This document shows, piece by piece, positions 31,385-58,132 of a DNA stretch of 64,000 nt (positions within the stretch are counted from its first letter, which is position 1; every line of letters starts with the position of its first letter). The translations under genes and the position numbers were made by a program. The DNA is taken from positions 1 through 64,000 of the forward strand of contig JAGATB010000024.1 of NCBI GenBank assembly GCA_017621495.1. The letters are read 5' to 3'. The stretch is from Clostridia bacterium (lineage in GTDB: Bacteria > Bacillota > Clostridia > UMGS1810). The notes under the pieces were generated by a model, which saw only the letters and a list, made by a program, of their open reading frames with translations, made no database searches and had not been told where the DNA came from.

Positions 31385-34300
31385 TTACTGTGTCTTTATT
31401 GCTAAAGATAAGCGTTCGTCAGCCATCCTATTGCCGTTTGCATCAACAAAGGAAATGGTGAGTTCTCTCTTACTTGCATTATTGTATCTCTGTACTGTAA
31501 ATGGTAACTCAATATACTTGTATCCGTTTGAATAGAGTACAAAACTTTCGGATGATGCTATTTGATTGCCATCTTCATCATAAAGTCTGAGTGTTCCGCT
31601 GAACGGGAGCTTTGAATAATTGTTTGCATTTATCTTTATTTTGATATCTGCATTTTCATACGCAGCTCTTGATTCCGGGAGTACTTGAGAGAGCAATCCG
31701 TAATTCAGAATCTTTTCACTATCCGAAAAGCTGTCAAACCAGTCGCAGTATACCTTGGTCAAAAGTCCCCAGCCTGCTATATATCCCTTGGTATCCTCCG
31801 GAGAATAGTCAAGGCTGCAGAGCTTGGCTGCTTTTTCTTCGGTGTTCACTGCATATGACAATATAGAATCAGAATACTGCATTATACGATTATCATCACG
31901 GTAAAGGCTGTCTGCCTTAGCTTGAACCTCCGCAGTAGAATATACCGGTTTATCGAGTGCCTCTCCGTCATATTCACTCATATAAACAACACCAAGCGTC
32001 TCTACTGTCTTTGATAATTCATATGTAGCACGCGATGCAACCAAGTCGGTAATTGCTCCATTTTCAAACTTGGCGATTATATCAAGTCCAAGCTGATTAA
32101 ATTCTTCTATGGAAGCTCTTATATTGGATTCGGTTGCATTATCAAGTGCACTCTCGGCATTGGCAAATGCGGTTTCTGCTTGGGCGAGGATATCAGCCGG
32201 CAGCATACTCTGGTAAGTATCTTCAAACAGGCTCCTGTCATACACCACATCCTCTTTTGCTGCCATTGCAATATATTTGTGTGAAAGACCATTTAAATAC
32301 ACCGGATTTTTGGTAAGGGTAACAGTAGATGTGTTTGATGATACTAAATTACCGTTTAAATCAGTTACGCTGAATTGTTCACCGTTAAGGGTCAGAGTGT
32401 GACTGTCTTCTAAAAACCATTCATCCCACCATGCCATCACCACGGGCTTACCCTGTTTTAGATATACAAAGGCACGGATTCTGTCATTTTTCAGATTTAA
32501 TTCTCCTACGTAGATAGCGCCGTTTAACTGTCTGTTTCGCTCAGCAACAGAAACATAGTGCTTTTTGGGGGTTGCATCGTATCTCAGCATTCCCCAGTTT
32601 TGCTCTTTGTCAGCAGGGTCTGTACCACGGTCATTTAATGCAAAAGCAAAGAACTTATGTCCTTTTTGGTCGCAGATTGTGTAGAGCTTGGGTAAGTTTT
32701 CAGCGATATCGGTTTCTTCCCTCGTCGTAGAAGCTGTGCCTGTATGCCATCCGCTTTCGGTTACATACATAGGCTTCCATCCACCTCTTGCTATAACCTG
32801 TGCCTCCATAGCATCAAGTCTGTTTTCATAGGCATTATCGTCATCTATATCCAAATGTGTTGTATAAAAATGATATGTCAAATCGCTCATATACGGATAT
32901 AATCCAAAATCAAGATAATCTCCCAGCTCGTCATAGCTGCTTTGATATGCAAAAGCCATGCCGCCTATAGATTTATTTTTAAAATTGCTTCTTATAGTTG
33001 CGGTCGTTGCTTTAAGCAAATCGGGATATTCATAATTCATGTCTTCTCTTGCTTCGGTTACTGTAGTATAATCCGATTGCCAGAAGCCTATGTTTGGCTC
33101 ATTCCAGATTTCAAGATTTGAAATCTTGGGGAAACGGTTCAAAACTTCAATTCCGTAATTGGCATAACCGCGGATACCCTCCTGAGTATGAGGAGCCATT
33201 CTGACATCTGCATTTACAGGCAGTGTCTTTCCTACATATGACTGCCACATGGGGTAAACAGAGCCGTTGCCATAGTCTAAGATTGCGTTCCAGGATACAT
33301 CCTTGGCGAGCATCTCGTCTGCCCAATTCGCAATAAATGACCAGTCAAATGTACCTTTGGTTTTTTCAACATATGACCAGTAAGTGTCTTTTCTGACTGC
33401 GGTAAAGCCCGCAAAATCAAACAAATCCATGTACAAGTCATCCGATACATTTTTAGAACCGCTCCAGTTTATACCGAATTCTGAAAACTCATCCATAAAC
33501 TGTTTTTCGTAACCGTTCATAACTACAAGGTCTTTTGCGGAAGTATATACAGTATTTTCACCGTCTTTTACGGTTATGACGATATTGTGTTCACCGTTTT
33601 CTATACCGGTAAAGTCATAACTCTGTTTTCTGGTAATTCCGGGTGTGACAGTCATAGTGCCAAGTAAGTATTCTTCGGCGTAGTCCACGCTTGCATAAGC
33701 CTTGTATGTTATAGGTGTTGAATTAATAAGCTCTGCAGTTATCTCGAATACAACCTCTTCGGAATCGATGACGCAGGGCTCCACAAGATTTCGCCATTTT
33801 CCGCTGAACTGTTCGCTTTTTTCTATGGGTTCAGGAGCCGATACAGCATCTTTTTCCTCAAAAACGGCCTTGTAAGGTGTCAGATTACTTTTCCATACAA
33901 AGGTTTTGTATACTGCATCTGCGTCAAATTTTACCGTAAGCTTTACATTTTTGGTTTCTCCGGCAGATAAAGTCACTGACTCCGAATCACATTCTATCAA
34001 AGCATTATCCTTGTATTTGGCCAGGAACACCCGTATATCCTGTGATTTGTTTCCGTTTTTAATAATAAACTCTGTAGACATATCTGTCTGTGAAGCGGTA
34101 TGTCTCAAAACTGCTACCAGGTCATCAAATCCGGTTGCAATCATCATATCTTTAGAGTAGTCAGACAGGTATTTTGCCTGGATAGTTCTTGTATGCTTTA
34201 TCATTTCTGACATGTCGGCTTCTATAGAGACAGCAGACGTTTCTCCGGTAGTTTTGCCTACAGATATGTCGTAGATTCCGGCATGGTTTTTCAACGGGAA

Positions 34301-35020
34301 AGATAAACTGAAAGTACCGTGGGAATCTGCGCAGACTGTATCGGCATACACCATTGCATCGTTAAATTTCATCCTTACGGAAACATAGCTTCCGGCTTGC
34401 GCAGGACCGCTGAGTGTAAGCATGCCGGAGCTTGATACATCATAGCTTATACCATCTGTTTCTCCGGTGAAAGCTTCAAATGTGTTCTCTGCGATTTTGA
34501 TTTTATCGGCGGCAATATCTGCCAGTGACTTGCTGTAGATAACCCTTTCATCATCAGTGGTATTTGCAAACTCTGAGATGCCGCTGCAAAGCCGTGCCAA
34601 TGAATCAATATCTGCATCAGCTTCTATCGCACCTGCGCTTGAATATGTTTCGGCAATCTTCTGTACATCTTCTCCTATAAGATGTATACTGTAAAGAAGC
34701 TCAAAAAGCTGTAAATCATCCAGTGTAAAAGCTCCTGTAATCTGTCCGTTTAAAAGTTCAGAGCCCAGCTCATAAGTGTCTGTAAGTATCCGGACATATT
34801 CTTCACCTGTGTCGGCTGAATTCACAGCATCTTTAAGTGCAGCGATATCCTGTGATAATATATCAACATTCTTCTCTGCCAGCAAAGCAGATAATTCATC
34901 GTATTTCAAAGCAAGATTATCCGCACCGGAGCTTAAAGCATCGGCAAATATACATGGAATAGAACCAATAATTATCTGTAGTACAACAATCATGCATATA
35001 ATACGTCTTTTCCAATTCAT
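31385..35020 (-). CDS. Secreted clan GH-A (GH39-like) glycosidase, 1211 residues
   Basis: The start at 35020 follows AAAGGAGGAG; a signal peptide ends near residue 27 (IPCIFADA). Residues 30-190 are helical and 190-400 are Ig/beta domains absent from the neighbour paralogue. A beta domain and TIM barrel follow (about 405-830), with acid/base E641 in EIWNEPNIGFW and nucleophile E755 in MYVTESGWHTGT. A helical bundle (about 900-1080) and a C-terminal beta domain finish it. The WNEPN and TESGW motifs fit clan GH-A, most like GH39; the substrate is unknown. It has no SLH or sortase signal, so it is released or held by other means. It is the last gene of the glycan locus. Confidence 0.8.
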   Translation of the reverse strand: MNWKRRIICMIVVLQIIIGSIPCIFADALSSGADNLALKYDELSALLAEKNVDILSQDIAALKDAVNSADTGEEYVRILTDTYELGSELLNGQITGAFTLDDLQLFELLYSIHLIGEDVQKIAETYSSAGAIEADADIDSLARLCSGISEFANTTDDERVIYSKSLADIAADKIKIAENTFEAFTGETDGISYDVSSSGMLTLSGPAQAGSYVSVRMKFNDAMVYADTVCADSHGTFSLSFPLKNHAGIYDISVGKTTGETSAVSIEADMSEMIKHTRTIQAKYLSDYSKDMMIATGFDDLVAVLRHTASQTDMSTEFIIKNGNKSQDIRVFLAKYKDNALIECDSESVTLSAGETKNVKLTVKFDADAVYKTFVWKSNLTPYKAVFEEKDAVSAPEPIEKSEQFSGKWRNLVEPCVIDSEEVVFEITAELINSTPITYKAYASVDYAEEYLLGTMTVTPGITRKQSYDFTGIENGEHNIVITVKDGENTVYTSAKDLVVMNGYEKQFMDEFSEFGINWSGSKNVSDDLYMDLFDFAGFTAVRKDTYWSYVEKTKGTFDWSFIANWADEMLAKDVSWNAILDYGNGSVYPMWQSYVGKTLPVNADVRMAPHTQEGIRGYANYGIEVLNRFPKISNLEIWNEPNIGFWQSDYTTVTEAREDMNYEYPDLLKATTATIRSNFKNKSIGGMAFAYQSSYDELGDYLDFGLYPYMSDLTYHFYTTHLDIDDDNAYENRLDAMEAQVIARGGWKPMYVTESGWHTGTASTTREETDIAENLPKLYTICDQKGHKFFAFALNDRGTDPADKEQNWGMLRYDATPKKHYVSVAERNRQLNGAIYVGELNLKNDRIRAFVYLKQGKPVVMAWWDEWFLEDSHTLTLNGEQFSVTDLNGNLVSSNTSTVTLTKNPVYLNGLSHKYIAMAAKEDVVYDRSLFEDTYQSMLPADILAQAETAFANAESALDNATESNIRASIEEFNQLGLDIIAKFENGAITDLVASRATYELSKTVETLGVVYMSEYDGEALDKPVYSTAEVQAKADSLYRDDNRIMQYSDSILSYAVNTEEKAAKLCSLDYSPEDTKGYIAGWGLLTKVYCDWFDSFSDSEKILNYGLLSQVLPESRAAYENADIKIKINANNYSKLPFSGTLRLYDEDGNQIASSESFVLYSNGYKYIELPFTVQRYNNASKRELTISFVDANGNRMADERLSLAIKTQ

Positions 35021-35100
35021 ACGGTACTCTCCTCCTTTTAATTTTACATTCATATTATCAAGCATAGCCACCATTTCAGGTGGCCATGCTCAACATATTA

Positions 35101-38100
35101 TTATTCGCCGAGCTTTTCGGGGAATAAAGTAACTGCTTTACCATCGATATAATTATCCTTATTTCCCGATTGAGTAAACGAGAAATCTGAATAAAGCGAC
35201 GGATTCTTGGTATCCGCAGTACCTTTGGTGAACTGATAAAACATATCCCTGTTGAGAACATCTGCCTCATTAATTGCAATGTTCATTCCAAATGTATTAC
35301 CATCAGCCAACTCAAGTCCTGAAAGCTCCGCCTTGGGGAAGGCTGCAATGTATCGGGTGATTTTATTTTCATCGTCACGGATTATATTTATGAAATCCAC
35401 ATTACCCGTACTGCTCTTAATAGGTGTCTGCCATGCCCACAATTCTATGCCGGCACCGCCTATTGCCATACCCAGTTCAAAGTCATCAGAATCGTATGAG
35501 CCTACAGAATCGGTATTTTTGGGGTCAATAGATATCTGCACGCTGTCACCGTCCCAGATACCGGTTCCTGTCATATAGTTGTAATGAACGTCATCATATG
35601 CATCAATAAGCAGATACAGATGATCATTGTCCCACTTAAGGAAAGCCCTTGCGGATATTTCTGCATTATCCCAGGAAGCTTTATCATCGGGATTTTCAGG
35701 TGAATTAATGTATATGGGATATGCATCATACCAATCCGAAATATCTCCGTTGAATTCCTTAGGATTAATTTCGTTTTCTGCTTTAACAATCGCTGTAAAG
35801 TTTAGCGGAACTGTATCGCTCGCTATAACGATACCTTCATCATTTACCGCTTCATATTTCACGGTATAATGATGGAATTTGGTTTCTTTTATTTCAGAAA
35901 CGGGCAGCTCAACAATCTTTTCTTCCTTAGCTCCAATTACGATGCTATGAGTGTTAGATGCAAACTGATAATTTTCATTCGATTCAACATTCAGCTTGAA
36001 TTTGAGCTCTTCATCCGTTAAGTTGGTAAATCTCAAATCAACGCTATCCATCTTGTCCACGGTTGTGGTACATGGCTGAACGAATGCATGCAAGCTGTCG
36101 TTTACTTTGAGGGTGAATCTCTCATCATGGAGTCTGTTGCCTTCAGCATCAACAAACGCTATCGTAAGCTCTCTCTTGCTCAAATCGTTATATCGCTGTA
36201 CGTTAAAGGGTAATTCGATATATTTAAAACCGCCCTCCTCAAGAGCAAACATTTCTGATGAAACAATCTCGTTGTTTTCCTCATCATAAAGGCGTATGGT
36301 GCCGCTGAAAGGAAGCTCTGAATAATTATTGGCATTGATTTTAATAATCTTATTATCATTTACATAGGCTTTTCGTGATTCGGGCAATACCTGAGCAAGC
36401 AAGCCGTAACTGATTATGCTTTCGTTATCCGAGAAGCTGTCAAACCAGTCACAATACACCTTGGTAAGGAGGCTCCATCCTGCGATGTAACCCTTGGTAT
36501 CCTTCGGTGCATAATCAAGCTCACAGAGCTTTAACGCATTCGCCTCTGCATTCAAGGCATATGTCAGTATAGCATCGGAATACCGCATTATGCGGTTATC
36601 ATCACGATAAAGTCTATCCGCCTTAGCCTGTGCTTCCACGGTGGTATATATAGGCTTTGAAAGCTCGCTGCCATCATACTCACTCATGTATACGGTACAC
36701 AATGTATTTACTGTTTTGGATAGCTCATATGTAGCACGTGAGGCAACAGTATCTGTGATTTCTCCCGATTTAAACTTGTCAATAATATCCAGACCAAGCT
36801 GTGTAAATTCATCAATTGACGCCTTCACATTTTTCTCGTTTGCATCATCGAGTGCCTTTTCTGCATTGGCAAAAGTGCTGTCTGCCTTTGTGAGGATATC
36901 CTGAGGCAGCATATCTGCGTAGGTTTGAGCGTATAATGCACGATCATATTTAACGTCTTCTTTTGCTGCCATAGCAATATACTTATCGGATAGACCATTT
37001 ATATATGCAGGCCATTTGGTAAGAGTTACTTTATCCGTGTTTGAAGATACAAGATTTCCATAAGCATCTGTGACGCTGAAATTCTCTTCATCAAATACAA
37101 ATTCAACCTCTTCTCTGTCCTTTGAACCATCCCATATAATCACTACAGGCTTACCCTCTTTGAGATAGACAAATGCCCTAATCTCGTCATCACCAAGGTC
37201 AAGCTCACCAACATATACACCACCGTTTATCTGCTTGTTGCGTGCGGCAAGAGTGAAGTACGCTTCCTTGGGAGTACCGTCCATTTTAATTATACCCCAG
37301 GTAGATTCTTTGTCTGCTTCGTTGGTACCTGCATCATTAAAAGAGAATGCAAGAAGCTCGTGGCCCTTTTGGTCACAAATCGTATACAGCTTGACCAGGT
37401 TTTCGGCAACATACTCCTCATCTCTGGCAGTTGATGCCGTACCGGTATGCCATCCGCACTCTGTAAGCTGCATTGGCTTCCAGCCGCCTCTGTCTATGAC
37501 ATAGCTTTCATATTTATCAAGTCTGTTTTCATATGTATTTTCATCGTCTATGCCTGCTCCGACTGCATAAAAGTGATATGCCAGCTCAGTCATATACGGC
37601 AGAATATCATAGTCAAGATAATCACCGAGCTCATCGAAGCTTCCTGAATGTGCAAAGCATAAGCCGGCTATTCTCTTGTTTTTAAGCTCACCTCTTATGG
37701 TTGCGGTAGTGGCTTTGAGCAGGTCGATGTATTCATAGTTGAAATCATCTTCACTTTTGCTGACGGTAGTTTGGTCAGAACGCCAGAATCCTATATTGGG
37801 CTCATTCCATATTTCCATATTTTTCATTCCGGGAAATCTCTTAAAGGATTCAACACCAAAGTTAGCATATGCGCGGATTCCTTCCTGGGTATGAGGAGCC
37901 ATTCTGACATCAGCATTTGCAGGAAGCGCTTTACCCACATATGATTGCCACATGGGGTAAACACTGCCGTTACCATAGGCTAAAGTGGCAGTCAGGTCTA
38001 TACCCTTAGATAAGACTTCATCTTTTTTCTGACCTATAAATGACCATTCATATACACCCTTGCTTTTTTCAACATAAGACCAATATAGACATCTTCTTAC

Positions 38101-38625
38101 GCCTTGGAATCCTGCACTTTCAAAAAGCTGCATATAGAGCGGATCAAGCTTATTGGAAGAACCTGTCCAGTTTATTCCGGAATGAGAAAACTCGTCCATA
38201 AATTGCTTTTCATAGCTGTCCATTATGATGACTTCATCTTCATAGCTGTAAAGCTCTGTAGCCTTGTCATTGACGGTTATCTTCAAATCATGCTTTCCGT
38301 TCTCCAGATTTAAATTAAAGTCCTTATTAATCTGTTTTCCGGGTATGAGCTTAAGTGTGCCTATAGACTGAGGCTGCTTACCTTCCGTGGTAAGATAAAC
38401 CGTATATGTGCGTGGCTTATAGCCTTTGAGCTCTGCCGACACAGCGAATACAGCTTTTCCTGCAGGGATTATACCTGTATCATTCATGTGCTTCCACTTT
38501 CCGGTTATATCAACACTTGATTTGGAAGAAGCAGTATTGTCACTGATAAAGCTCGCATAGCCGGTAATAGAAAACGATGTTATCAAAATTGAGACAACAA
38601 TTAAAACACTTAAAAATCTTTTCAT
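35101..38625 (-). CDS. Secreted clan GH-A glycosidase with C-terminal CBM9-like domain, 1174 residues
   Basis: It is a paralogue of the next gene. The start at 38625 follows AGGAGG, with a signal peptide to about residue 24 (SFSITGYASF). A beta domain (40-135) leads to the TIM barrel (140-480) with E275 in EIWNEPNIGFW and E389 in MQLTECGWHTGT, then the same helical bundle. Beyond the shared part it adds an Ig-like region and a CBM9/DOMON-like domain (EFNGDISDWYDAYPIYIN, then FLKWDNDHLYLLIDAYDD). The two proteins thus share a core and differ at opposite ends. It starts 10 nt after the SLH gene. Confidence 0.8.
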   Translation of the reverse strand: MKRFLSVLIVVSILITSFSITGYASFISDNTASSKSSVDITGKWKHMNDTGIIPAGKAVFAVSAELKGYKPRTYTVYLTTEGKQPQSIGTLKLIPGKQINKDFNLNLENGKHDLKITVNDKATELYSYEDEVIIMDSYEKQFMDEFSHSGINWTGSSNKLDPLYMQLFESAGFQGVRRCLYWSYVEKSKGVYEWSFIGQKKDEVLSKGIDLTATLAYGNGSVYPMWQSYVGKALPANADVRMAPHTQEGIRAYANFGVESFKRFPGMKNMEIWNEPNIGFWRSDQTTVSKSEDDFNYEYIDLLKATTATIRGELKNKRIAGLCFAHSGSFDELGDYLDYDILPYMTELAYHFYAVGAGIDDENTYENRLDKYESYVIDRGGWKPMQLTECGWHTGTASTARDEEYVAENLVKLYTICDQKGHELLAFSFNDAGTNEADKESTWGIIKMDGTPKEAYFTLAARNKQINGGVYVGELDLGDDEIRAFVYLKEGKPVVIIWDGSKDREEVEFVFDEENFSVTDAYGNLVSSNTDKVTLTKWPAYINGLSDKYIAMAAKEDVKYDRALYAQTYADMLPQDILTKADSTFANAEKALDDANEKNVKASIDEFTQLGLDIIDKFKSGEITDTVASRATYELSKTVNTLCTVYMSEYDGSELSKPIYTTVEAQAKADRLYRDDNRIMRYSDAILTYALNAEANALKLCELDYAPKDTKGYIAGWSLLTKVYCDWFDSFSDNESIISYGLLAQVLPESRKAYVNDNKIIKINANNYSELPFSGTIRLYDEENNEIVSSEMFALEEGGFKYIELPFNVQRYNDLSKRELTIAFVDAEGNRLHDERFTLKVNDSLHAFVQPCTTTVDKMDSVDLRFTNLTDEELKFKLNVESNENYQFASNTHSIVIGAKEEKIVELPVSEIKETKFHHYTVKYEAVNDEGIVIASDTVPLNFTAIVKAENEINPKEFNGDISDWYDAYPIYINSPENPDDKASWDNAEISARAFLKWDNDHLYLLIDAYDDVHYNYMTGTGIWDGDSVQISIDPKNTDSVGSYDSDDFELGMAIGGAGIELWAWQTPIKSSTGNVDFINIIRDDENKITRYIAAFPKAELSGLELADGNTFGMNIAINEADVLNRDMFYQFTKGTADTKNPSLYSDFSFTQSGNKDNYIDGKAVTLFPEKLGE

Positions 38626-38635
38626 ACTGTGCCTC

Positions 38636-41251
38636 CTATCTGTAAACAACCAACATCTGAGCAGCTGTCTGCCAGGTATAATAGAATATATCCGACGCAG
38701 CATCTTCACCAAAATGTTTTACATCATATATGTCTTCAATAGTTCCCTTCTTTACATAAGTACCGTTTCTGCTATTATCTACAACATATATCGGCACGTT
38801 ATTTAAAGAAACAAATTTATTATTGGCGATATTTATATCATCCCTTAATACCAGAATGTTTCCTGCTCTGTCGTATACTCTGCCGCAATGAGGATTAAAC
38901 TCACTGCCAAAGTACTCTGTAGCGAATTTATTATCCGGATGGAAGCCTCTGAGCTTAGCGGAGTAGATGATATTGATATCCGAGATATCATTTCTCATGT
39001 CCACAGTGTAATTAACAAAATCACCTATTTCAATCATTAAATTTTTGGATTCAAGCTCCTTGGTCATAGCCAAAGTTGTTTCTTCTCCGGTTTTGGTTAC
39101 AAGTTTAAGCTTGGTTACAGCCTCGCCCTCGCTGTTCAATCCCTGTACAATCTTGGTAACAACGGATGAGCGGTTACCTCTTGCAAGATTTCCTCCGCCT
39201 TCATTTATCATATATACAACATCAGGAATATACGAATCCGGATTGTCATTAAATCCCTGAAATACCTTTGTGGCATTCGCAGTAAGATAAGAAAGGGATG
39301 TTACCATATAATCCTCATCACCGACACCCTGTTCAGACTCATTGGGAACAATATAAAGCTTAGTGTTATTGTCGGGAATCAGAGTACAGTACAATGGTGA
39401 TATGGTAGTATCTAATCCACCCTCATGGAAGGAACCGCCAAATACTTTAAGAGCCGGATAATATTTCATTGTACCCTTAGGGGTAAGAGTGCGTAAAGTA
39501 GCATCTCCTTCGGAGTCGGTCTTATTTACGGTGTCAATTTCCTTAAGAACATCATCACCTGTAAGCTTGTATCTTATAATCTGAGGCTTGCTCAGTGTAT
39601 CAAACATTGAATCAGTATACTTCTCTCCGTCTACCTTGAGGTTTTCATCAGTATCCAGAATTGCTACAGTGCCGTTGCTTTTCATCATTTTAATCCTGAT
39701 ATTGGCATCAAGGGCGGACTCACCGTCACCTGCTGCTATTATATATCCATACTCCATGTCATCGGAGGCATCCTCTATGGCAGCTATTCTGCCGGTATAG
39801 TCCAGGCAGAAGGTAGCCTTGGTACCGATTGCAGGCAGTGTGCTTACCTTCTTTAAGTAGCTGTCGGATACTATGTATTCTGTGCCGTCAAGCGACAGGT
39901 AAATGTTTCCGTTCATATCCGAGCGGCTGTCAACAGTACCGGATTTCTTGTTGTCTACTATAATTATCCTCACATACTGACCGTCACGGCTCTTAACGAA
40001 GTTGCCTACAACGCCTGTAGTAAGCTGTGACAGGGTGAGCTGTTCAAATTTGGTATTCCATATAATCCAGTCCTTGGCATCCTCCAGCTCTATGAGAGAG
40101 GTATTGTCATACTTGTCGATTAATCTTTCGTTTTCTACATCGATACCGTCTATGTATATACTGCCCCATGCAGTCACATTAACCACATCGATTTTGCCGT
40201 TGCGGTCATTATCTACAAGACGGAAGTCAGCATCCGGGGTTTTAAAGATATCCATGGTATAATCGGGGTATGCCTTGCCGTTGTAAATAAGCTTTGCCGA
40301 ACCGGGAATGGTCTCGCTGTCCTTTCTTTCTCCGGAATAGTAGCTTACACTGCGGTCGGAAACTGTGATGTTATCCTCCCAACTGATATATGTAACTTTA
40401 TTTGAGCTTGTGGGCTCCAGATAGAGCACGAAATCACCTTTTTCGTCCTCCTGGTAGTAGTACTCCACTTCATATCCCAGGTAGTTCTCGGCATTAACAC
40501 CGCCGTAAATCTTACCCTTGAAATCACCTATTACTATCTCATTGTCATGGTCCTTGGGTGCAGTGAGAGTGGTATAGCTGTTTTCTGTGAGTACACCCTC
40601 TCCGCGGCGGATTTTGAATGCATTGTACAGAAGCGTCTCTCCGCTTTGGAAGGTTATACCCTTCTCTACCGATATTGCACTGATTTCATTGACCTCTGTG
40701 TTGAGGGCATTGAGAAGCAGCACCAGAGAATCACCATAGCTGAAATATGCATCAGCCTCTATACCAACATTTAAATCAAGAGTATTGGCTACAGTATGAT
40801 AGCCTGCCGGGAAGCCTCCCTTGGCTGCAGCAACCATATCATATCCCAGAAGGCTTATGGTTATCTTGAGAGCTTCGTTATATGTCACGGCATCACCGGG
40901 ACGGAAGCTCCCTGAGCCGTTGCCGGAAATAATACCAAGCTCGGTAGCGGCACATATATATTCATATGCTGCATCGGAGGTACTAACATCCGTAAAGGGT
41001 GAGCCGGGCAGCTTATACCCCTTAAGCTCCGGGAAAGCAACAGAGATATACATGGATATAAGCTCTGCTCTGGTTACAGTATCTTCGTATGCCTTGCCGG
41101 GGGTATCGTAACGTTCAAATACACCTATAGCCTCCAGCAAGGTACGGGTCTTTTCATATTCATTGACTGAGTTGGCTGTATCGGCAGAAACAACGCCTAC
41201 ACTGCCAAGCATAGCTAATATAATAAACAGTGATATAATACGTTTAATCAT
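38636..41251 (-). CDS. SLH-domain surface protein, 871 residues
   Basis: A signal peptide (MIKRIISLFIILAMLGSVGV) is followed by N-terminal SLH repeats: AYEDTVTRAELISMYIS, then FTDVSTSDAAYEYICAA with LGIISGNGSGSFRPGDAVTY, then a degenerate third with AYFSYGDSLVLLLNALN. SLH domains bind pyruvylated cell-wall polymer. The remaining 650 residues are beta-rich, with repeated short strands and many acidic residues, and have no recognized catalytic site. Probably a wall-anchored binding or scaffold protein for the glycan locus. Confidence 0.82.
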   Translation of the reverse strand: MIKRIISLFIILAMLGSVGVVSADTANSVNEYEKTRTLLEAIGVFERYDTPGKAYEDTVTRAELISMYISVAFPELKGYKLPGSPFTDVSTSDAAYEYICAATELGIISGNGSGSFRPGDAVTYNEALKITISLLGYDMVAAAKGGFPAGYHTVANTLDLNVGIEADAYFSYGDSLVLLLNALNTEVNEISAISVEKGITFQSGETLLYNAFKIRRGEGVLTENSYTTLTAPKDHDNEIVIGDFKGKIYGGVNAENYLGYEVEYYYQEDEKGDFVLYLEPTSSNKVTYISWEDNITVSDRSVSYYSGERKDSETIPGSAKLIYNGKAYPDYTMDIFKTPDADFRLVDNDRNGKIDVVNVTAWGSIYIDGIDVENERLIDKYDNTSLIELEDAKDWIIWNTKFEQLTLSQLTTGVVGNFVKSRDGQYVRIIIVDNKKSGTVDSRSDMNGNIYLSLDGTEYIVSDSYLKKVSTLPAIGTKATFCLDYTGRIAAIEDASDDMEYGYIIAAGDGESALDANIRIKMMKSNGTVAILDTDENLKVDGEKYTDSMFDTLSKPQIIRYKLTGDDVLKEIDTVNKTDSEGDATLRTLTPKGTMKYYPALKVFGGSFHEGGLDTTISPLYCTLIPDNNTKLYIVPNESEQGVGDEDYMVTSLSYLTANATKVFQGFNDNPDSYIPDVVYMINEGGGNLARGNRSSVVTKIVQGLNSEGEAVTKLKLVTKTGEETTLAMTKELESKNLMIEIGDFVNYTVDMRNDISDINIIYSAKLRGFHPDNKFATEYFGSEFNPHCGRVYDRAGNILVLRDDINIANNKFVSLNNVPIYVVDNSRNGTYVKKGTIEDIYDVKHFGEDAASDIFYYTWQTAAQMLVVYR

Positions 41252-42859: not shown

Positions 42860-42869
42860 AGTAGTCCTC

Positions 42870-46435: not shown

Positions 46436-46462
46436 GGGCGGATGTAGGCATCCGCCCCTACA
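46436..46462. repeat. REP-like hairpin with CCCTACA tail
   Basis: GGGCGGATG (46436-46444) and CATCCGCCC (46449-46457) pair perfectly around TAGG, followed by CTACA. It lies between the stop of the 851-residue secreted protein gene and the binding-protein start; it may also attenuate transcription. Confidence 0.75.
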
Positions 46463-49767: not shown

Positions 49768-49786
49768 ATTGCTCACCTCCCACACG

Positions 49787-50926
49787 TCAACCGAGATATC
49801 GCTGCATTTCTGCACACATGAGGATAAATGCACCCACACCGTGGAGGTCATTTTTTATCTTTTCTCTGTTTATGTAGTGCTCATAGGTGCCTGAATCTAT
49901 ACAGGTTCCTATACATACATTATCTATGACGATATCACCTTTTTCATCATATGACAGAGAATCGATTATACCGGCGTATGCCTTATCTATAACCGATGCA
50001 TATTTATCCTTAGCTACGATTCCCTTGCGCACAGCCTTGGCATAGGCATATGTAATCAAGCATGAGCATGAAGTTTCAATCCAGTTATCTTCAGCATCAA
50101 TTTTGTCGATTACTTCATACCACATTCCCGTAGCTGCGTCCTGATAATTAACGAGAGCTTCAAGCAAATCAGCTTCTATCTTATTAAGACGCTCCACTGC
50201 AGGGTGGTTGTCCGGTATATAATCCAGTATATCCAGTACAGCGACTGCGTACCAGCCTATAGCTCTGCCCCAGAACTGCCCGGAGAGACCGGTTTCTTTA
50301 TCAGACCAAGGCTCCTCTTTGGATTCGTCCCAGCCGTGATAGTAGAGGCCTGTGTTTTTATCTTTCATGTGTCTTTCCATGATGAAAACCTGCTCTATGG
50401 CACGTTCACGCAGTGTATCATCACCGAATCTATGAGCATACATTACTGATAAAGGACCTGCCATATAGGCTCCGTCCAGCCACATCTGATTGTGCTGTGT
50501 CATCATGTGCCAGTAGCCCTTCTCTGAGTTTACAGGCCAGAAATACATTGACTGAGCAATAGTTTTTATTGCATTCATATATTTTTCTTCGCCTGTCTCA
50601 TCATACAAATTATAAAGCAGAATGCTTGGTTGCTTGCAGTCAAGCAACTGAATTGCAGAAGACACAAACCAAGAGGCATCCTGTGGGGTTATCTCATGAC
50701 ATATGCCAAAAAGCTCTCCGTTTTCTCCTATTACACTATCGATATATTCTTTTATGTAATCAAAGTATTTTTTATCGCCCGTCAGATAATATACATTCTG
50801 CATACCCGACAGAAACACTCCCTGATGGTAGAAAAATGCACCCTTTGGAGGCAAATCTTTTGCCTCATAGTTATTCATCATCATTTTGCAGGCAAGCTCT
50901 GCATATCCTAAAGGTGTTATTTCCAT
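49787..50926 (-). CDS. GH105/GH88-like unsaturated uronyl hydrolase
   Basis: The protein has 379 residues, an alpha6/alpha6 barrel. MWLDGAYMAGPLSVMYAHRF carries the catalytic aspartate D151, and SGQFWGRAIGWYAVAVLDIL is the second family signature. GH105 removes the 4,5-unsaturated uronic acid left by lyases on rhamnogalacturonan or related acidic glycans. No signal peptide is present, so it acts inside the cell. This is the strongest evidence that the substrate polymer contains uronic acid cut by a lyase. Confidence 0.92.
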   Translation of the reverse strand: MEITPLGYAELACKMMMNNYEAKDLPPKGAFFYHQGVFLSGMQNVYYLTGDKKYFDYIKEYIDSVIGENGELFGICHEITPQDASWFVSSAIQLLDCKQPSILLYNLYDETGEEKYMNAIKTIAQSMYFWPVNSEKGYWHMMTQHNQMWLDGAYMAGPLSVMYAHRFGDDTLRERAIEQVFIMERHMKDKNTGLYYHGWDESKEEPWSDKETGLSGQFWGRAIGWYAVAVLDILDYIPDNHPAVERLNKIEADLLEALVNYQDAATGMWYEVIDKIDAEDNWIETSCSCLITYAYAKAVRKGIVAKDKYASVIDKAYAGIIDSLSYDEKGDIVIDNVCIGTCIDSGTYEHYINREKIKNDLHGVGAFILMCAEMQRYLG

Positions 50927-50932: not shown

Positions 50933-51793
50933 TCACTCCTTGCTTTGCGACTCTTTCTCATTATATTCTATTGTGAAAAGCATCGGCGTTTCAGAAAGTC
51001 GGTCCATCATATAATCAGTTTCTTTAACTCCATCAACCAGATGGGTGTCCGCACTTCCAAATTTAACCTTTTCAGCAATTCCTCTTTCAAGAAATTCAGG
51101 CTCCATCTTGTTAAAATACCAATTATGATGAGGATTGTGTCTCTGATATTCAAGAGGGAAGGTATTCCCGTCATAATCGGTTACCGTGAACTTCCACACA
51201 AAGGGAGCAAACAAATCTGGAACCTTTGCCCATTCCTCAATAGCGTGCATCAATGTATTGCAGGACATTGTTGTGCCGAGGAAAAGAATTTTTGCTTTTC
51301 TGTCATAAAGCCTGTGCCATGGTCCCTCTATTGCATAAGGCGTCTTACATTTTTCATGTCCGCTGCAAAATTCTTCTGCGTCCTTTCCGTATGCTGCAAG
51401 CGAGGTTGTCGGACTCAGCGAACGCACAACCCCTTCTCTCTTTCTGAAAATCTCGGGAATTATACCAAGGTCTGTACTCGGTGTTGTCTTTACATCATAA
51501 TCACTTCCGTATGGATAAAACCCGTCAAGATTTTCGTCAAAGGGTGGGCGGTATTCGCCTTTATCATTTATCATCCAGCCCATTTTCCAGCTCATTGTCG
51601 GAAATACCACAAGTCCTTTTTCGCCAAAATACTCAATAAACGCATCAACTATGGTATCCGCTCCTCCATCTACCCCGACATCACCCGCTATACTCTTATA
51701 TGATGAATGCACAAGAACTGTATCGGTTTCTTTGAGCCCCATTTTTTTTAAATCGTTAATTAAATCCTGTTTTGTATACATAATTTTTTCCAT
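50933..51793 (-). CDS. AAC(3)-family N-acetyltransferase
   Basis: The protein has 286 residues. Family blocks are TDTVLVHSSYKSIAGDVG, VVFPTMSWKMG, STDLGIIPEIFRKREGVVRS and HPTTS-like LSPTTSLAAYGKDAEEF. Members acetylate aminoglycoside antibiotics, but many homologues in metabolic loci act elsewhere. Here it lies between GH105 and a beta-propeller gene in the same operon, so an amino-sugar substrate is as likely as resistance. AGAGGTAGCT precedes the ATG. Confidence 0.85.
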   Translation of the reverse strand: MEKIMYTKQDLINDLKKMGLKETDTVLVHSSYKSIAGDVGVDGGADTIVDAFIEYFGEKGLVVFPTMSWKMGWMINDKGEYRPPFDENLDGFYPYGSDYDVKTTPSTDLGIIPEIFRKREGVVRSLSPTTSLAAYGKDAEEFCSGHEKCKTPYAIEGPWHRLYDRKAKILFLGTTMSCNTLMHAIEEWAKVPDLFAPFVWKFTVTDYDGNTFPLEYQRHNPHHNWYFNKMEPEFLERGIAEKVKFGSADTHLVDGVKETDYMMDRLSETPMLFTIEYNEKESQSKE

Positions 51794-51804: not shown

Positions 51805-53163
51805 TCAGTCTGCACAGTCAATGGTTGGCAACCAATTATAGCCGTTACCTGTCATTTTCTGCATAAAATATTTAAATCCGCTCTTATATCTGGCAAGCAA
51901 TGCTTCACTATCCTCTGCATCAACATCTCCCCAAATTCTTACCTTTTGTTCATCACGGTAATACGTCATAAACTGCTCACCCTTAAAGTCATACCATTTT
52001 CCTATTCTGATAATTGCACCGCCTGCGTATTTTATCAGGTTACCTTCCGAGTCATATACTTTACATATTCCATTGTCTGTCCACTTTGCATTAATAAATT
52101 CGTGATAGCCGTCACCATCAATATCTATCGGTCTAAGTTCCTTTAAAGCAAACGGGAAATCAAGCTTTTCGCCCGTTGCTGCATCAAAATAATATTCTAT
52201 ATCAAGAGTTGTATCCGTTCCGAACGAAATCTGTCTGTTGTGTGCTTTTGAATTGAAGGTATATCCCAAATGAATATGTCCGTGATTGAACTTCGTATGG
52301 TCTGCATATACATTTTCCCAAACTCTCTTTCCCTCACTGTCAAACATGACTATTCTCGGACAATTCTCATAGTTTCCGTTCTCACGGCAGGTATAAACAC
52401 ATCTCTTACCTGATTTTAAATCTGTAAATGGCTGTACCACATCAGAGTGTCCAAACCACTTATCTCCATCCATACAGAATAGTTCTTCACCTGTATCAAG
52501 ACTAATTACATGCTCTCCAAACAAGAACTCGTCTGTTCCGTCATTATTTAAATCCAGAACTGGTACCGAATGTGCACCTCTTGGTCCGTCACCGTCCTCT
52601 ATCACCTTTGTCCATCTTGAGCTCATATCCGCATTGTAACACTGAAAATACATTTCCTTGTATGTGCCCTGCTGTGCCACAAGGACCGGCTCACCGTCCA
52701 CATATCCGCCAAAGAGCATATATCTGTATGCCTCGCAAAGCATTATATATCCTATATTTTCAGCTTCAAACGGATATCGTCCTATTATCTCACCTGTTCT
52801 CGCATCAAGTCTCTCTATTACACGGCTTCGTATCATTAATGGTTTGTCCGATATATTATTTACAAACCATATTTCATCTACGCCGTCCTTATCCATATCA
52901 AGTGCAATAAAAGGCACAAACCATGGCCCGGGAATTAATGAAATTTCCATCTCCTTATGCCATAATTGCTGTCCTTCTTCCCCATACATAGCAAAGTGAA
53001 GCGGTTTATCGTAATGGCCGAAATGGCTATCACACGGGTCTATGACATTGGATTCGGAATAGACAAACAGCATACCGGTCTCTCTGCCCAGCTTCACATC
53101 GCAGGACCTGACCTGCTTTGGCTTTACGCCAAGGTCGTATTCTCTGAGAACCTTTATATTCAT
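51805..53163 (-). CDS. FG-GAP-like beta-propeller protein, possibly related to PL11 lyases
   Basis: The protein has 452 residues from ATG 53163 (GGAGG 8 nt upstream). Three calcium-loop repeats are visible: LDMDKDGVDEIWF, LDLNNDGTDEFLFG and IDIDGDGYHEFINAKW, typical of FG-GAP blades and of rhamnogalacturonan lyase family 11. It is shorter than PL11 enzymes (about 600) and has no signal peptide. A lyase role would fit the adjacent GH105, but catalytic residues cannot be assigned. Confidence 0.65.
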   Translation of the reverse strand: MNIKVLREYDLGVKPKQVRSCDVKLGRETGMLFVYSESNVIDPCDSHFGHYDKPLHFAMYGEEGQQLWHKEMEISLIPGPWFVPFIALDMDKDGVDEIWFVNNISDKPLMIRSRVIERLDARTGEIIGRYPFEAENIGYIMLCEAYRYMLFGGYVDGEPVLVAQQGTYKEMYFQCYNADMSSRWTKVIEDGDGPRGAHSVPVLDLNNDGTDEFLFGEHVISLDTGEELFCMDGDKWFGHSDVVQPFTDLKSGKRCVYTCRENGNYENCPRIVMFDSEGKRVWENVYADHTKFNHGHIHLGYTFNSKAHNRQISFGTDTTLDIEYYFDAATGEKLDFPFALKELRPIDIDGDGYHEFINAKWTDNGICKVYDSEGNLIKYAGGAIIRIGKWYDFKGEQFMTYYRDEQKVRIWGDVDAEDSEALLARYKSGFKYFMQKMTGNGYNWLPTIDCAD

Positions 53164-53302
53164 AGCAAACACCTCCGTAATTTCTTTTTACATTTACACT
53201 ATATCATATATTTGGGGCTGAAACATTAAAAATATTGCATATTTTACACTAATAAAAATTTTGTTATATTGCAGGGAGTAATAATACGATTTACCGCAAA
53301 TA

Positions 53303-53371
53303 CAGCAGCCGCAAATTGACACGATCCGAAATGTTTTGACAATTCAGACCTGTAATCATTTGCGGCTGCTG
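53303..53371. repeat. 14-bp perfect inverted repeat with 41-nt loop
   Basis: CAGCAGCCGCAAAT (53303-53316) and ATTTGCGGCTGCTG (53358-53371) pair perfectly. It lies in the 233-nt gap after the GH20-like gene and before the beta-propeller gene. There is no T-run on the minus strand, so it is more likely an mRNA-processing or stabilizing stem splitting the operon, or an operator, than a simple terminator. Confidence 0.6.
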
Positions 53372-53405
53372 CAATTTTATAATAATTTAAAACATATATA
53401 TATGA

Positions 53406-54767
53406 TTATTTGTACCATATGGAGCTGAAATTATCTACAAGCTCTTTTGCGGGCTTTTCGCCGCACCATTGGAGAGCTCCCGAGAGCACCACATAAGGCA
53501 CAGATGACTGCGGCTTATGCCATGTTGTCTGAAGCATACCATGGCTCTTTCTGTCACGGCACACATCTATCATGCTTTCAATGCTCTCCTCATTCATAAA
53601 GGGTGAATACACTGTTTCAAAGCCTTTATCCTCAAAGAAAGCAGCATCCTGCCATTTTTTACCGGGGTTGTTATGTGTCCATATATTTATAAGAATATTT
53701 TTGGGAAGAGTGTCTACTATTTCTTCTCTGCATTTCCAGTAAAGTGCATCCATGGAAGAATAAAGCATATCCGCCCACATAACCATTCTCACATTTTTCT
53801 CTGACAGATATGTATTGAGAGTGGAAAGATGCTTTGCCAGCAACACATCTGCACTCATGGTACGGTCCTCCTCTGTAGAACCAAAACCGAATGCCTTATC
53901 ACAACCGGTATGTAAATAAGGAGGATTTCTGAACATATCTATAAGTTCATCCATCAGAAGTCTCTGGAATTCCTTGGTCTTAGGATTCTCTGTAGCGAAG
54001 CACCATCCGCCGGGAATATACATATCCTCTAAGTCGGGTCTTTGGTCAAGTACGGTGTGCTTTCTTGAAATTATTCTGCTCCATGCTGCATGAGATGTCA
54101 TATTCTGCTGTGGAAGAGGTCGTATATGCAGTTTATCCATTGCATAACTAATAAGGTCTTTAACTTCTTCCTTTGAATATGCATTCGGCCAGTGTGCGTA
54201 GTCAAGACTGTATGGGAACATACCCCAGAATTCTACAAAGATGTGATTATAACCGCTGATTGCAGCAGCTTTCATCATTTTCTTGATATATTCCGGACTG
54301 GATTCTTCTTTTTCTGTACCATCATCGGGTCTGAACATACATACATGTACAGCTCTGAAGGGAATGTCGGGACGGTCTTTTATCTGCATCTGAGGCATAA
54401 CATCAAGCTCCTCTGACATTCTTATATATGCCTTCAAACCAAGGAGCATACCTTCTACTGTTTTGGCAGCAATAACAAGGCTGTCTTCACAAGTCTCAAG
54501 GTAATACTCTTCATCGTCGCAGAAGCTGAAATCTGCAATTTGAGGGTCCTTTTTTCCTATTGATAAGACATAAGCATTGTCCACACCTTCAAAGGCTACA
54601 ACATTTGCCGCATTTTCAAATCCGGCTAACTTAAGCAAATAGGAAAAATCACTCTCATCCGCATTTGTGTATACAGCCGCATTGTCGTTGTGGTTGTATG
54701 TGCCCTCCTTTAACACCAATTTCTTTGGCTTAATCAAGAGCTTTTTCAAAATATCATTTCTTTTCAT
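53406..54767 (-). CDS. GH20-like hexosaminidase-fold protein with altered active site
   Basis: The protein has 453 residues. The N-terminal 130 residues resemble the GH20b domain; the TIM barrel begins at DIPFRAVHVCMFRPDDG. At the usual H-x-G-G-D-E site the sequence is LHTGCDKAFGFG (H286 to K291): Asp kept, catalytic Glu replaced by Lys. No signal peptide is seen. It may be a GH20 relative with a different mechanism or a binding protein. It lies 13 nt after a SIS gene in the same operon. Confidence 0.7.
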   Translation of the reverse strand: MKRNDILKKLLIKPKKLVLKEGTYNHNDNAAVYTNADESDFSYLLKLAGFENAANVVAFEGVDNAYVLSIGKKDPQIADFSFCDDEEYYLETCEDSLVIAAKTVEGMLLGLKAYIRMSEELDVMPQMQIKDRPDIPFRAVHVCMFRPDDGTEKEESSPEYIKKMMKAAAISGYNHIFVEFWGMFPYSLDYAHWPNAYSKEEVKDLISYAMDKLHIRPLPQQNMTSHAAWSRIISRKHTVLDQRPDLEDMYIPGGWCFATENPKTKEFQRLLMDELIDMFRNPPYLHTGCDKAFGFGSTEEDRTMSADVLLAKHLSTLNTYLSEKNVRMVMWADMLYSSMDALYWKCREEIVDTLPKNILINIWTHNNPGKKWQDAAFFEDKGFETVYSPFMNEESIESMIDVCRDRKSHGMLQTTWHKPQSSVPYVVLSGALQWCGEKPAKELVDNFSSIWYK

Positions 54768-54780: not shown

Positions 54781-55530
54781 TTAAAGCATTTTTATTAATT
54801 GTTTATATTTATCAAGATATTTTGCATTTTTTTCATCACCGCCGGGTGTATTGGCACTGGACCATACAGGCGGTACAATTCCTCTTTGGGTACATAGGTT
54901 AACTGTTTCTATCTCAAGCAGATGCGCTATGTAAAAATCAATTATATTTGAAACAGGTGCTATTGGTGTATCAAATCCGGGAACCGTAACTACGGCATCT
55001 CCTACGGGATTAAAATCATCGATACACACATCTGCATAATCAAACAGATTCTTCTTATTCGGATGGCGAATAAAGTGGTCCTCCGGCATCTGATTTTGCC
55101 AAAGTGAGCTTGACACTGCTATAATCTTGACGCCGCGTTTCTTTGCTTCCTCCGCCGCATCAATTGTTGCGGGATTGATGCCTATATTGTGGAAAATAAT
55201 GAGTACATCATCTTTGTGCAAATCATAGTACTTCATTATGGCACTGCCGTAATTTACAGTTCTTTCAAGCTCAAGGTACTTGAGTGCCTGGTTAAAGACA
55301 GACAGTCCTGTCTCCATAATGGGATTTATGCAAGCAAGACCGCCGGCTCTGAAAAACATCTCTCCCATACAAAGTGTGGTGTGACCGCCGCCACCATACA
55401 CACTGATTAGCTTATCATCAGCGATAGCGTTGCACATTAATTCTGCAGCCTTTTTGATATTATCGCACTGAGTATCATTAACCTGTTTGAAATTTTTCAA
55501 AAGACTTTCATAATAACCAAAATCATTCAT
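54781..55530 (-). CDS. SIS-domain sugar isomerase-like protein (first of two)
   Basis: The protein has 249 residues. The phosphosugar-binding features are LISVYGGGGHTTLCMGEMFF and DDVLIIFHNIGINPATIDAA, where a serine run usual in SIS loops is replaced by HNIGIN. It resembles sugar isomerase-domain proteins of the UPF0309 type. It overlaps the kinase gene by 8 nt. With the second SIS gene (56382-57104) it likely handles amino- or ketosugar phosphates. Confidence 0.8.
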   Translation of the reverse strand: MNDFGYYESLLKNFKQVNDTQCDNIKKAAELMCNAIADDKLISVYGGGGHTTLCMGEMFFRAGGLACINPIMETGLSVFNQALKYLELERTVNYGSAIMKYYDLHKDDVLIIFHNIGINPATIDAAEEAKKRGVKIIAVSSSLWQNQMPEDHFIRHPNKKNLFDYADVCIDDFNPVGDAVVTVPGFDTPIAPVSNIIDFYIAHLLEIETVNLCTQRGIVPPVWSSANTPGGDEKNAKYLDKYKQLIKML

Positions 55531-56368
55531 TATACAATCTCCTCTCTATTTCATGTCTGTAGGGTATGGAATTTAACACATATTTGCCACTTACGCTTAT
55601 GCCGGATGCTGTAACAGCATATTTACACGCTGTTTCAATATCTGTTTTTTCTGCTATACACGCAGCGAGAACTCCGTTAAAAACATCACCTGCACCGGTC
55701 GTATCTACAGCAGTAACATCAATTGCATCAATCGATACCTGCTCATTTATAAGGCATCCCTTACTACCGAGAGTGGTAATGCAGTTTTCAAACCTTTGCA
55801 CATCGATTGCTTGTTTCTCATGCTCATTCGGAGTTACTGCAAATATCCCCCGAGCCACATCATCCGTTATTTCCCTTATAGGTGCAGGATTTAATATAAC
55901 TTTAACATGATGCTTCTGAGAGAGCGCTACAGCCGCCTTATTTACTTCAGGAGATACTTCCTGCTGAAGCAGTAAAATATCACTTGAGGCTATCTCAGCT
56001 TCAAAATCCAGAACATCGCTTTCACACAGCTGTGCACTTTTGAACTCCGTAACACGGTTTTCTCCGGAAGCATCTTTCAGAATAAAAGCAAAAGCTGTAT
56101 TTTTATTGGTTTTGACCTTCCAAAATGCTTTCAAGCCGTTTTGCGAAGCAACATTACAGCACTGTCTGCCGCTATCGTCATCACCGATTGCAGCGAGGAA
56201 GCTGACTTCTGCCCCCATACGAGCGGCTGCTATAGCCTGATTAATGCCTTTGCCGCCTATCTCTTCATACACAGAATCAGCTATCAGGGTTTCGCCATTT
56301 TGGTGAAAATGTTCAACATACATAAAAGTTGATTTACCACATATTCCTATCACAGATACTTTTGGCAT
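55523..56368 (-). CDS. PfkB-family carbohydrate kinase (ribokinase-like)
   Basis: The protein has 281 residues. The N-terminal substrate signature is GGKGINQAIAAARMGAEVSF and the C-terminal ATP/anion-hole signature is DTTGAGDVFNGVLAACIAE, with catalytic Asp in GAGD. It would phosphorylate a sugar released by the glycosidases. It lies between the two SIS genes, suggesting a kinase-isomerase pathway. Confidence 0.92.
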   Translation of the reverse strand: MPKVSVIGICGKSTFMYVEHFHQNGETLIADSVYEEIGGKGINQAIAAARMGAEVSFLAAIGDDDSGRQCCNVASQNGLKAFWKVKTNKNTAFAFILKDASGENRVTEFKSAQLCESDVLDFEAEIASSDILLLQQEVSPEVNKAAVALSQKHHVKVILNPAPIREITDDVARGIFAVTPNEHEKQAIDVQRFENCITTLGSKGCLINEQVSIDAIDVTAVDTTGAGDVFNGVLAACIAEKTDIETACKYAVTASGISVSGKYVLNSIPYRHEIERRLYNE

Positions 56369-56381
56369 TACATGTCCTCCT

Positions 56382-57104
56382 TTACAAATGCTTTATCCTG
56401 GGAAGATATCTCCTTATAAGCTCTTTGTTGTATTCTTCACCGCCGTCAATATTTCCGCTCATATATATCGGCGGCAAAGCATGGCTTTTTGCCGCTAATG
56501 CGGCACCCTCCATCAAAATCGACTGAATCACAAATGAGCTCGCTATAGTAGATATACTTCCCATCTTGGTATTCGCTCCCGCGATATCTAATGTTGCATC
56601 ACCGTGCACTACACAATTGTCAACAAATATATCCGAGCATTGGTAAAGCATGGGCTCTGCCTTTTTATCTTCAAAATATGCGGAAGAAACAATAGATATA
56701 GTCTTTATATTGTTTTTCCTTGCTTCAAGCGCCATTTCTACCGGAACTGCATTTTTGCCGGATGTTGATACAACAATAATTGCATCATTAGCTTTTATAT
56801 CATATCTTTCAAATATACTTGATGCAATGCCGGACATCTTCTCCATTTTACTGCTTTTGGCTGCACCGTTATGAAGCATAAGGTCTGTATCAAGCATCGC
56901 ACTTACATTTGCCAGACCTCCTGCTCTGTAAAAAGTATCCAATGCTATCAAATGTGAATGTCCGCATCCGAATACATATATTATACCGTCATTAACGATA
57001 ACCTCGGAAATCATATCTGCTGCACTTGCAATTTTCTCTTTTTGAGTATCCTTGATTTTCTTTAAGACATCAATTATTTCACCATAATACTTCTCTGTAA
57101 TCAT
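56382..57104 (-). CDS. SIS-domain protein, UPF0309-like (second of two)
   Basis: The protein has 240 residues. GIIYVFGCGHSHLIALDTFY and AIIVVSTSGKNAVPVEMALE are the SIS nucleotide/phosphosugar loops, with the STSGKN motif intact. HALPPIYMSGNIDGGEEYNK closes the protein. It overlaps the TIM-barrel gene by 4 nt. Its better-preserved loop suggests it is the catalytic member of the SIS pair, or that the two form a heteromer. Confidence 0.85.
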   Translation of the reverse strand: MITEKYYGEIIDVLKKIKDTQKEKIASAADMISEVIVNDGIIYVFGCGHSHLIALDTFYRAGGLANVSAMLDTDLMLHNGAAKSSKMEKMSGIASSIFERYDIKANDAIIVVSTSGKNAVPVEMALEARKNNIKTISIVSSAYFEDKKAEPMLYQCSDIFVDNCVVHGDATLDIAGANTKMGSISTIASSFVIQSILMEGAALAAKSHALPPIYMSGNIDGGEEYNKELIRRYLPRIKHL

Positions 57105-58132
57105 TTTTTTAATACTCTCTTATAATTTCTGCCGATATTATCCCATAGTTCGATGGGATCTTTAGCAGCAACAGACGTGCCGTAGCCGCCGCGATATGTC
57201 CATGTAGCCAAACGATCAACTCCAAGCCCTTCATACATATCAACGACTTTATCAATTTGTGAAAAATCAGCCGGACGTTTGTTGTAGCCCATAAGCCATC
57301 TTTCGGATTGCTTGCCGTATTTCTTAGCCATAGCTACTGTTCTTTCTGTGATATCTTTAAAGAAGCTCTCCGGCAATTCCCAATTGATAATTGTTGTAGA
57401 GAATACATCAAAATACGGGCAGGATGCAACCATTTCCCAATTATCATAACCGCGAAGCTCAGTTACATAGTATGTATTTAATGTTGCGTGAACACAACAT
57501 GTAATTTCAAGATTGGGATTTAATTCTTTAAGTGCCTTTGAAGTATCTGACAGTGTAAACAATGCTTCACGCCATCTGAATTGCTTTACATCATCATTCA
57601 TAAACTTGGGCATTTCATATCCGTAATAATCCTCGAATTTTTTCATACATTCCGGACATCTGCATGCCCAGTCATCTCCTGCCCCACCTGTTATTGATGC
57701 GTATGATTTGGGATACGCGTAATGAGGCTCATCCCAGAAAAATCCATCAACCTCGGTCTCCCTTGCAAGCTTTAAACACATGTTTTTGAAATAATCTCTG
57801 AAAGAATTTGTGTTGAAGCATGCTGCATTGAGGATCTCCCCGGTATATGCGGATACCTGTCTGTGATGAATATTATTCTGAAGGAACAGGCTTACCTGCT
57901 CACCGCCAAAATACTTACCTATACCCCAAGTATCAGCAATTACTCTAAGCCCCATCTTGTGAGCCAATTTCACGATATTATTGATGTTCGGAAACCAAAA
58001 ATCCATATCAAACTCTGTAATTGCTAAAATAACCGTATCACAGCCATGGTCAATCATCTCCTGAAAATCTTTCTCTGCGTGCTCAACATAATTGAATCCG
58101 TAATAGCTTACTGACGTATGCTTAATCGACAT
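57101..58132 (-). CDS. TIM-barrel glycosidase-like protein with a CxCxxC motif
   Basis: The protein has 343 residues, no signal peptide. The barrel starts SVSYYGFNYVEHAEKDF; the strand end VDGFFWDEPHYAYPKSY has D and E placed like glycosidase acid residues, and the insertion WACRCPECMKKFEDYYG has three cysteines typical of a metal or structural knot. I cannot name a GH family. It is the first gene of the long leftward locus, next to the AraC promoter region, so it may act early in breakdown. Confidence 0.6.
   Translation of the reverse strand: MSIKHTSVSYYGFNYVEHAEKDFQEMIDHGCDTVILAITEFDMDFWFPNINNIVKLAHKMGLRVIADTWGIGKYFGGEQVSLFLQNNIHHRQVSAYTGEILNAACFNTNSFRDYFKNMCLKLARETEVDGFFWDEPHYAYPKSYASITGGAGDDWACRCPECMKKFEDYYGYEMPKFMNDDVKQFRWREALFTLSDTSKALKELNPNLEITCCVHATLNTYYVTELRGYDNWEMVASCPYFDVFSTTIINWELPESFFKDITERTVAMAKKYGKQSERWLMGYNKRPADFSQIDKVVDMYEGLGVDRLATWTYRGGYGTSVAAKDPIELWDNIGRNYKRVLKK

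Follow-up and report, generated by a model that had tools for sequence, protein, structure and literature searches.

A composite glycan-use locus in a Clostridia bacterium contains a portable cassette, probably for amino-sugar breakdown

Do the many carbohydrate-related genes that lie together on one strand of a clostridial contig serve a single polymer, or do they form several modules that merely adjoin? The window analysed here, a stretch of 64,000 nucleotides from a Clostridia bacterium (genome 2.2 Mb, 89% complete), carries a gene run on the minus strand, 58132 to 31385, which faces two divergent AraC-family regulators on the plus strand (araC1, 58265–59095, PF12833/PF00165; and a second at 59105–59965, PF12833 and PF02311) and ends before the genes for phosphotransacetylase and acetate kinase. 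A sequence-only reading had placed in this run a GH105 enzyme, a GH20-like protein, a deacetylase, an AAC(3)-like transferase, two SIS proteins and a PfkB kinase, all of which are confirmed by Pfam matches at that place and on that strand. It had proposed that the combination departs from the usual pectin set and targets one polymer of uronic and amino sugars, such as a capsule or glycosaminoglycan-like material. It had missed an RGL11_C-like propeller, two GH39/PslG-like proteins, an ABC importer, two SLH proteins and the gene at the head of the run, here called tim343. Elsewhere in the window there is a full-length RNase P class A RNA (18503–18849, minus strand).

The region from 31385 to 58132 consists of several adjoining modules and is not one inherited system. 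Because relatives split the gene run, and because a gap with a hairpin separates the GH20-fold gene (GH20-K) from the RGL11-like gene, we divide it into three. Module A (58132–53406) holds tim343, two NagS-like SIS proteins, a PfkB kinase and the GH20-fold protein; module B (53172–49078) holds the RGL11-like propeller, the AAC(3)-like transferase, a YteR-like GH105 and the deacetylase; and module C (49035–31385) holds the ABC importer, the SLH proteins, two secreted GH39/PslG-like enzymes and a secreted protein of 851 aa. The 233-bp gap between modules A and B (53173–53405) contains, at the end of module A, a hairpin on the minus strand (53300–53372; 19-nt arms, 89% complementary; −43 kcal/mol, z −8.3) that has no second copy within the window. 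Since this gap with its very stable hairpin splits the run, the gene spacing suggests that the region probably comprises more than one transcription unit.

The comparison with relatives was built on tim343 (57101–58132, minus strand), the 343-aa first gene of module A. Searching 391 genomes of the class gave orthologues at 73–95% identity in 10, the copy in G194 being only a fragment at a contig end, and a distant match (32%) in G287. A scan of public genomes with tim343 confirmed 102 places; the 80 retained, at 77–95% identity, include records from Planctomycetota, Lentisphaerota and Verrucomicrobiota. The cassette survey was seeded by the tim343 search, so its counts cover tim343 loci only; most loci come with up to 10 kb of flank and some with less, as flanks end at contig ends, and counts are uncorrected for kinship except where the tim343 tree was used. 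The neighbours that recur are an AraC regulator, the GH20-fold protein, sisA, pfkB and sisB, and the order araC / (GH20) tim343 sisA pfkB sisB is kept in Clostridia, Planctomycetota, Lentisphaerota and Verrucomicrobiota, with the AraC relative divergent beside tim343 in most surveyed loci, as araC1 is in the window. Most cassettes also carry a Gfo/Idh/MocA oxidoreductase together with a protein of ~230 aa, a pair for which no ortholog-level match is present in the window's genome. In one locus (L034:13369-15137) the oxidoreductase has 358 aa and its ~230-aa partner belongs to no Pfam family. When the window's GH105 was used as query against 84 cassette loci, it gave no match in the available flank. 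The sequence-only reading had named relatives lacking the amino-sugar genes as evidence against itself, and what we found is the reverse: relatives keep these genes and do so without GH105. It is thus well supported that module A is a portable, conserved unit, present without GH105 in dozens of gut Clostridia and PVC bacteria.

What might this cassette do? The tim343 protein has no match to a Pfam or NCBIfam family. Its AlphaFold model (pLDDT 81, pTM 0.85) finds its nearest folds in GH42, GH35 and PgaB (Z 22–26), and against the GH42 structure 4uni the comparison gave a VIA Z of 25.8 with an rmsd of 2.8 over 303 aa. In its model tim343 shares the barrel fold of the GH42 and GH35 enzymes of clan GH-A and, as they do, places acidic residues at strand 4 and strand 7; it differs from them in being a single 343-aa domain, with 12–16% identity to them and no sequence family of its own. 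Two of its glutamates, E135 (WDEPHY, at the end of strand 4) and E277 (SERW, on strand 7), are invariant in 35 sequences and sit in the model where a retaining GH-A enzyme would be expected to have them, making them a candidate catalytic pair. By its predicted fold tim343 would be a GH-A-type glycosidase, though likeness of fold does not in itself demonstrate a function. Unexpectedly, the window's protein shares 87–95% identity with those of other clostridial loci, although fourfold-degenerate sites are merely 27–48% identical, and sisA and pfkB of those same loci reach 48–72% identity. Recent transfer was considered as the source of this conservation and rejected, since synonymous sites are near saturation among Clostridia. 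A plasmid search for tim343 returned only distant haloarchaeal relatives (26–29%).

The two SIS proteins, sisA (56382–57104) and sisB (54781–55530), both on the minus strand, match the SIS_2 profile of Pfam (5e-45 and 5.5e-36 for the two proteins) and are homologous over their full length to NagS of Streptomyces coelicolor (SCO4393, UPF0309/SIS, PDB 9eol), at 3.2e-39 for sisA and 2.5e-26 for sisB. NagS is a GlcNAc-6P dehydratase in which the roles of the key residues are established (PMC12680351). Its essential residues H53, R64, E94 and D179 are present in both proteins. At nine positions compared over the cassette set, sisA reads HSRSESSDN, identical to NagS, and so has the phosphate-binding Ser54, Ser119 and Ser121. 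The sisB clade has the signature HTRLEHIDN with few variants; it retains H53, R64, E94, D179 and N228 and has T, L, H and I at S54, S91, S119 and S121, so that the three phosphate-binding serines are T, H and I. This unexpected loss, with the catalytic residues kept, suggests a phosphate-independent role for sisB; since the phosphate-contacting serines are individually non-essential in published NagS mutants (PMC12680351), it is suggestive and not proof. Furthermore, NagS homologues of 26–36% identity from outside the Streptomycetaceae showed no appreciable GlcNAc-6P dehydration (PMC12680351), and for that reason the SIS proteins of the cassette may instead isomerise, deaminate or catalyse an elimination on a different sugar. 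Amino-sugar use has a further SIS protein in AgaS, which acts as a deaminase/isomerase (PMC3668189). Compared with NagS, sisA and sisB are set apart by their place in a catabolic cassette of Clostridia and PVC bacteria, and sisB by the missing phosphate-binding serines.

The kinase gene between them, pfkB (55523–56368, minus strand; PF00294, 1e-40), encodes a ribokinase-like sugar kinase that scores below the ribokinase cut-off of TIGR02152. Across the 59 loci with enough flank, sisB occurs alone in 27, pfkB and sisA without sisB in 8, all three in 21, pfkB alone in 1 and none in 2; sisA without pfkB was seen in none of the 59. This pattern fits a kinase-dependent sisA and a kinase-free sisB. 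Orthologues of sisB (at least 68% identity) are found in 8 of 386 class genomes, each of which also has tim343.

The last gene of module A encodes GH20-K (53406–54767, minus strand), which matches PF00728 above cut-off (5.7e-13) and has GH20 proteins as its best Foldseek matches. Its model has a pLDDT of 90 overall and lower values around the Lys291 loop. It has the fold and pocket residues of GH20 beta-N-acetylhexosaminidases and lacto-N-biosidases (9fym, 8pxu) but, unexpectedly, differs from them in having a lysine in place of the catalytic glutamate: the general-acid Glu is Lys291 in 12 of 12 aligned clade members while Asp290 is kept, so the GH20 catalytic Asp-Glu dyad is absent. GH3 N-acetylglucosaminidases with a His replacing the acid Glu act as phosphorylases, and by analogy one possibility is that GH20-K is a phosphorylase; another is that the acid has been relocated to an invariant EE pair, and a third that activity has been lost. 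The Lys replacement in every aligned member would fit a GH20-K that is catalytically dead or serves in binding, but the invariance of Asp290, R138, H226, W331, D333, W363 and W416 across both GH20 clades in the alignment, and the motif CDK...FGS.EE found in 12 of 12 members, whose FGS.EE part suggests a changed rather than a lost function, make this rather unlikely.

Of 391 class genomes, 5 contain GH20-K and each of these has tim343; at other places GH20-K adjoins GH113-like or DUF4434-like barrels, relatives of the AAC(3)-like transferase, or a deacetylase. It never shares a cassette with the Gfo/~230-aa pair (0 of 51; Fisher 7e-8, uncorrected for kinship), and on the tim343 tree the exchange of one for the other takes 10 changes by parsimony, at least 3 of them forced by starred branches. 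The two are not strict alternatives at the level of the genome, an idea that was dropped because two genomes, G004 and G092, combine a Gfo-type cassette with a GH20-K gene at a separate locus. A more specific proposal is that tim343 and sisB form a kinase-free pathway in which sisB, as a NagS-like enzyme, eliminates or isomerises on an N-acetylhexosamine that is unphosphorylated or carries a C6 carboxylate, the pathway being fed by a Lys-type GH20 that may be a phosphorylase or lyase-like enzyme instead of a hydrolase; we consider this improbable.

The case for an amino sugar as the substrate draws on several kinds of gene. A NAGLU/GH89-like gene lies in 15 of the 84 cassette loci (for example L045:15236-17503, L079:7928-9811 and L110:11734-14196), never in cassettes that bear GH20-K, and NagA is encoded elsewhere in the window's genome. 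Taken together, the NagS-homologous SIS proteins with their catalytic residues, the GH20-fold and NAGLU/GH89-like genes that recur beside the cassette, and NagA support the prediction that module A degrades an N-acetylhexosamine-containing glycan.

All genes of modules B and C are also on the minus strand. The module B gene set was seen, among the genomes and loci compared, only in the window. Although the GH105 enzyme (49787–50926; PF07470, E 1e-97) is close to YteR, the GH105 unsaturated rhamnogalacturonyl hydrolase of B. subtilis (1.5e-92 to 1nc5), and keeps the catalytic Asp of QMWLDG, its neighbours are not an RG-I set and it has a 16-aa insertion. As a close YteR relative with the catalytic Asp, it likely targets an unsaturated uronyl end. 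The nearest orthologues, at 68% and 64%, are in two relatives of the same family (G009 and G006) that have no orthologous tim343, and the one in G009 lies near SLH proteins, of which one has a PL22-like match. The beta-propeller fragment (51805–53172; PF21348, 3.3e-10), a 455-aa protein in which no signal peptide was seen, matches only positions 177–317 of the 490 in the RGL11_C profile; an assignment to PL11 was rejected as this partial C-terminal match falls short of the full PL11 architecture. It is the sole RGL11 match in the genome, in keeping with the earlier view that this is not the usual pectin set. Heparinase II/III (PF07940) has no match in the 89%-complete genome, which argues against a glycosaminoglycan-like target, and the searches for RGL11 and heparinase II/III in this incomplete genome found no lyase partner for GH105.

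The Antibiotic_NAT/AAC(3)-like N-acetyltransferase (50933–51793; PF02522, 1.9e-52) scores below every AAC(3) equivalog cut-off, and given this and the glycan-use context a role in antibiotic resistance was rejected. Its relatives adjoin GH20-K in three other loci (L044, L048 and L054), and a 34% relative of the NodB-type polysaccharide deacetylase (49078–49851; PF01522, 7.8e-19), which would be cytosolic if its start is Met29, lies beside GH20-K at L170. These associations link some module B genes to module A.

Module C begins with the 851-aa secreted protein (46480–49035), which has a signal-peptide-like start and no Pfam match, followed by an ABC sugar-binding protein (44994–46451; PF01547), two permeases (43795–44730 and 42870–43781; PF00528), and surface proteins with three SLH domains (41261–42883) and one (38636–41251; both PF00395). 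At its end are gh39b (35101–38712), with a C-terminal CBM9 (CBM9_1, 1.2e-08), and gh39a (31385–35074), with NEPN and TESGW motifs and matches to 5jvk (9.6e-09) and PslG (2.8e-05). These two are paralogues, 62% identical and ~1,200 aa each, with CBM9 only on gh39b. The catalytic domain of gh39a resembles PslG-like and GH39-like secreted hydrolases; gh39a and gh39b differ from these as 1,200-aa multidomain secreted proteins, with CBM9 in gh39b, that adjoin SLH proteins. The surface genes (the 851-aa protein, two SLH proteins and GH39-like proteins) are again found as a group in G362 and G140, where the stretches examined carry no gene of module A, and relatives of the 851-aa protein occur in the surface modules L152 and L153. 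Two gaps of module C contain short GTAGGGGCG-type repeats (44777–44787 and 46452–46462, minus strand); L001, also from this genome, has one more exact match.

How far do these modules act together? If all acted on one acidic amino-sugar polymer, capsular or glycosaminoglycan-like, the sisB pocket with its His could read the C6 carboxylate of an N-acetylhexosaminuronic acid and GH105 would remove the unsaturated end made by a lyase. The adjacency on one strand of GH105, the transferase, the deacetylase and the amino-sugar cassette would then be explained, the change in the sisB pocket is real, and the GH39/PslG-like enzymes do resemble an exopolysaccharide hydrolase. However, with GH105 beside none of 84 surveyed cassettes, its best orthologues in relatives that lack a tim343 orthologue, heparinase II/III missing from the genome and a hairpin-bearing gap between modules A and B, we regard this as distinctly unlikely. 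The sequence-only reading thus stands as to its amino-sugar signal and the departure from the usual pectin set, but not as to a single polymer of uronic and amino sugars. It is very unlikely that the locus is instead of a rhamnogalacturonan type, with GH105 and the RGL11-like propeller serving pectin and module A adjoining by chance: the kinship of GH105 to YteR and the PL22-like neighbour of its G009 orthologue would agree with this, but the propeller match is partial and solitary, and relatives of the transferase and deacetylase accompany GH20-K elsewhere.

The reading we favour, and hold to be somewhat more likely than not, is a composite glycan-use locus whose module A would be a portable cassette working in the cytosol on an oligosaccharide that contains N-acetylhexosamine, through SIS steps of which one depends on the kinase and another does not. 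Module C would make and import the oligosaccharide at the surface, and tim343 and, in this variant, GH20-K would act on it once imported. The freed amino sugar would pass directly to sisB, which has lost the phosphate-binding serines, or alternatively be phosphorylated by PfkB and passed to sisA, which has kept them. Module B would trim local decorations, with GH105 removing an unsaturated uronate and the deacetylase and transferase acting on N-acyl groups. Observed directly are the genes present, the limits of the modules in relatives, the genes that occur together and the residue patterns; from these we infer every substrate and reaction of the scheme. Their adjacency suggests that the three modules may share one glycan, and the combination of amino-sugar genes with uronic-acid genes is a local one, only putatively functional.

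For the cassette, UPF0309 and the Lys-type GH20, the open-access literature gave nothing beyond NagS. In conclusion, the cassette probably breaks down an amino-sugar glycan with cytoplasmic enzymes by an unusual and unstudied route. Its most conserved member, tim343, is without a family model, which leaves the cassette unannotated in many genomes, and its range extends from Clostridia of the ruminant gut to PVC bacteria. The locus is also a warning that adjacent modules need not mean one polymer. If our inferences hold, a phosphate-independent branch would be added to the NagS/SIS family, together with a GH20 clade of altered chemistry.
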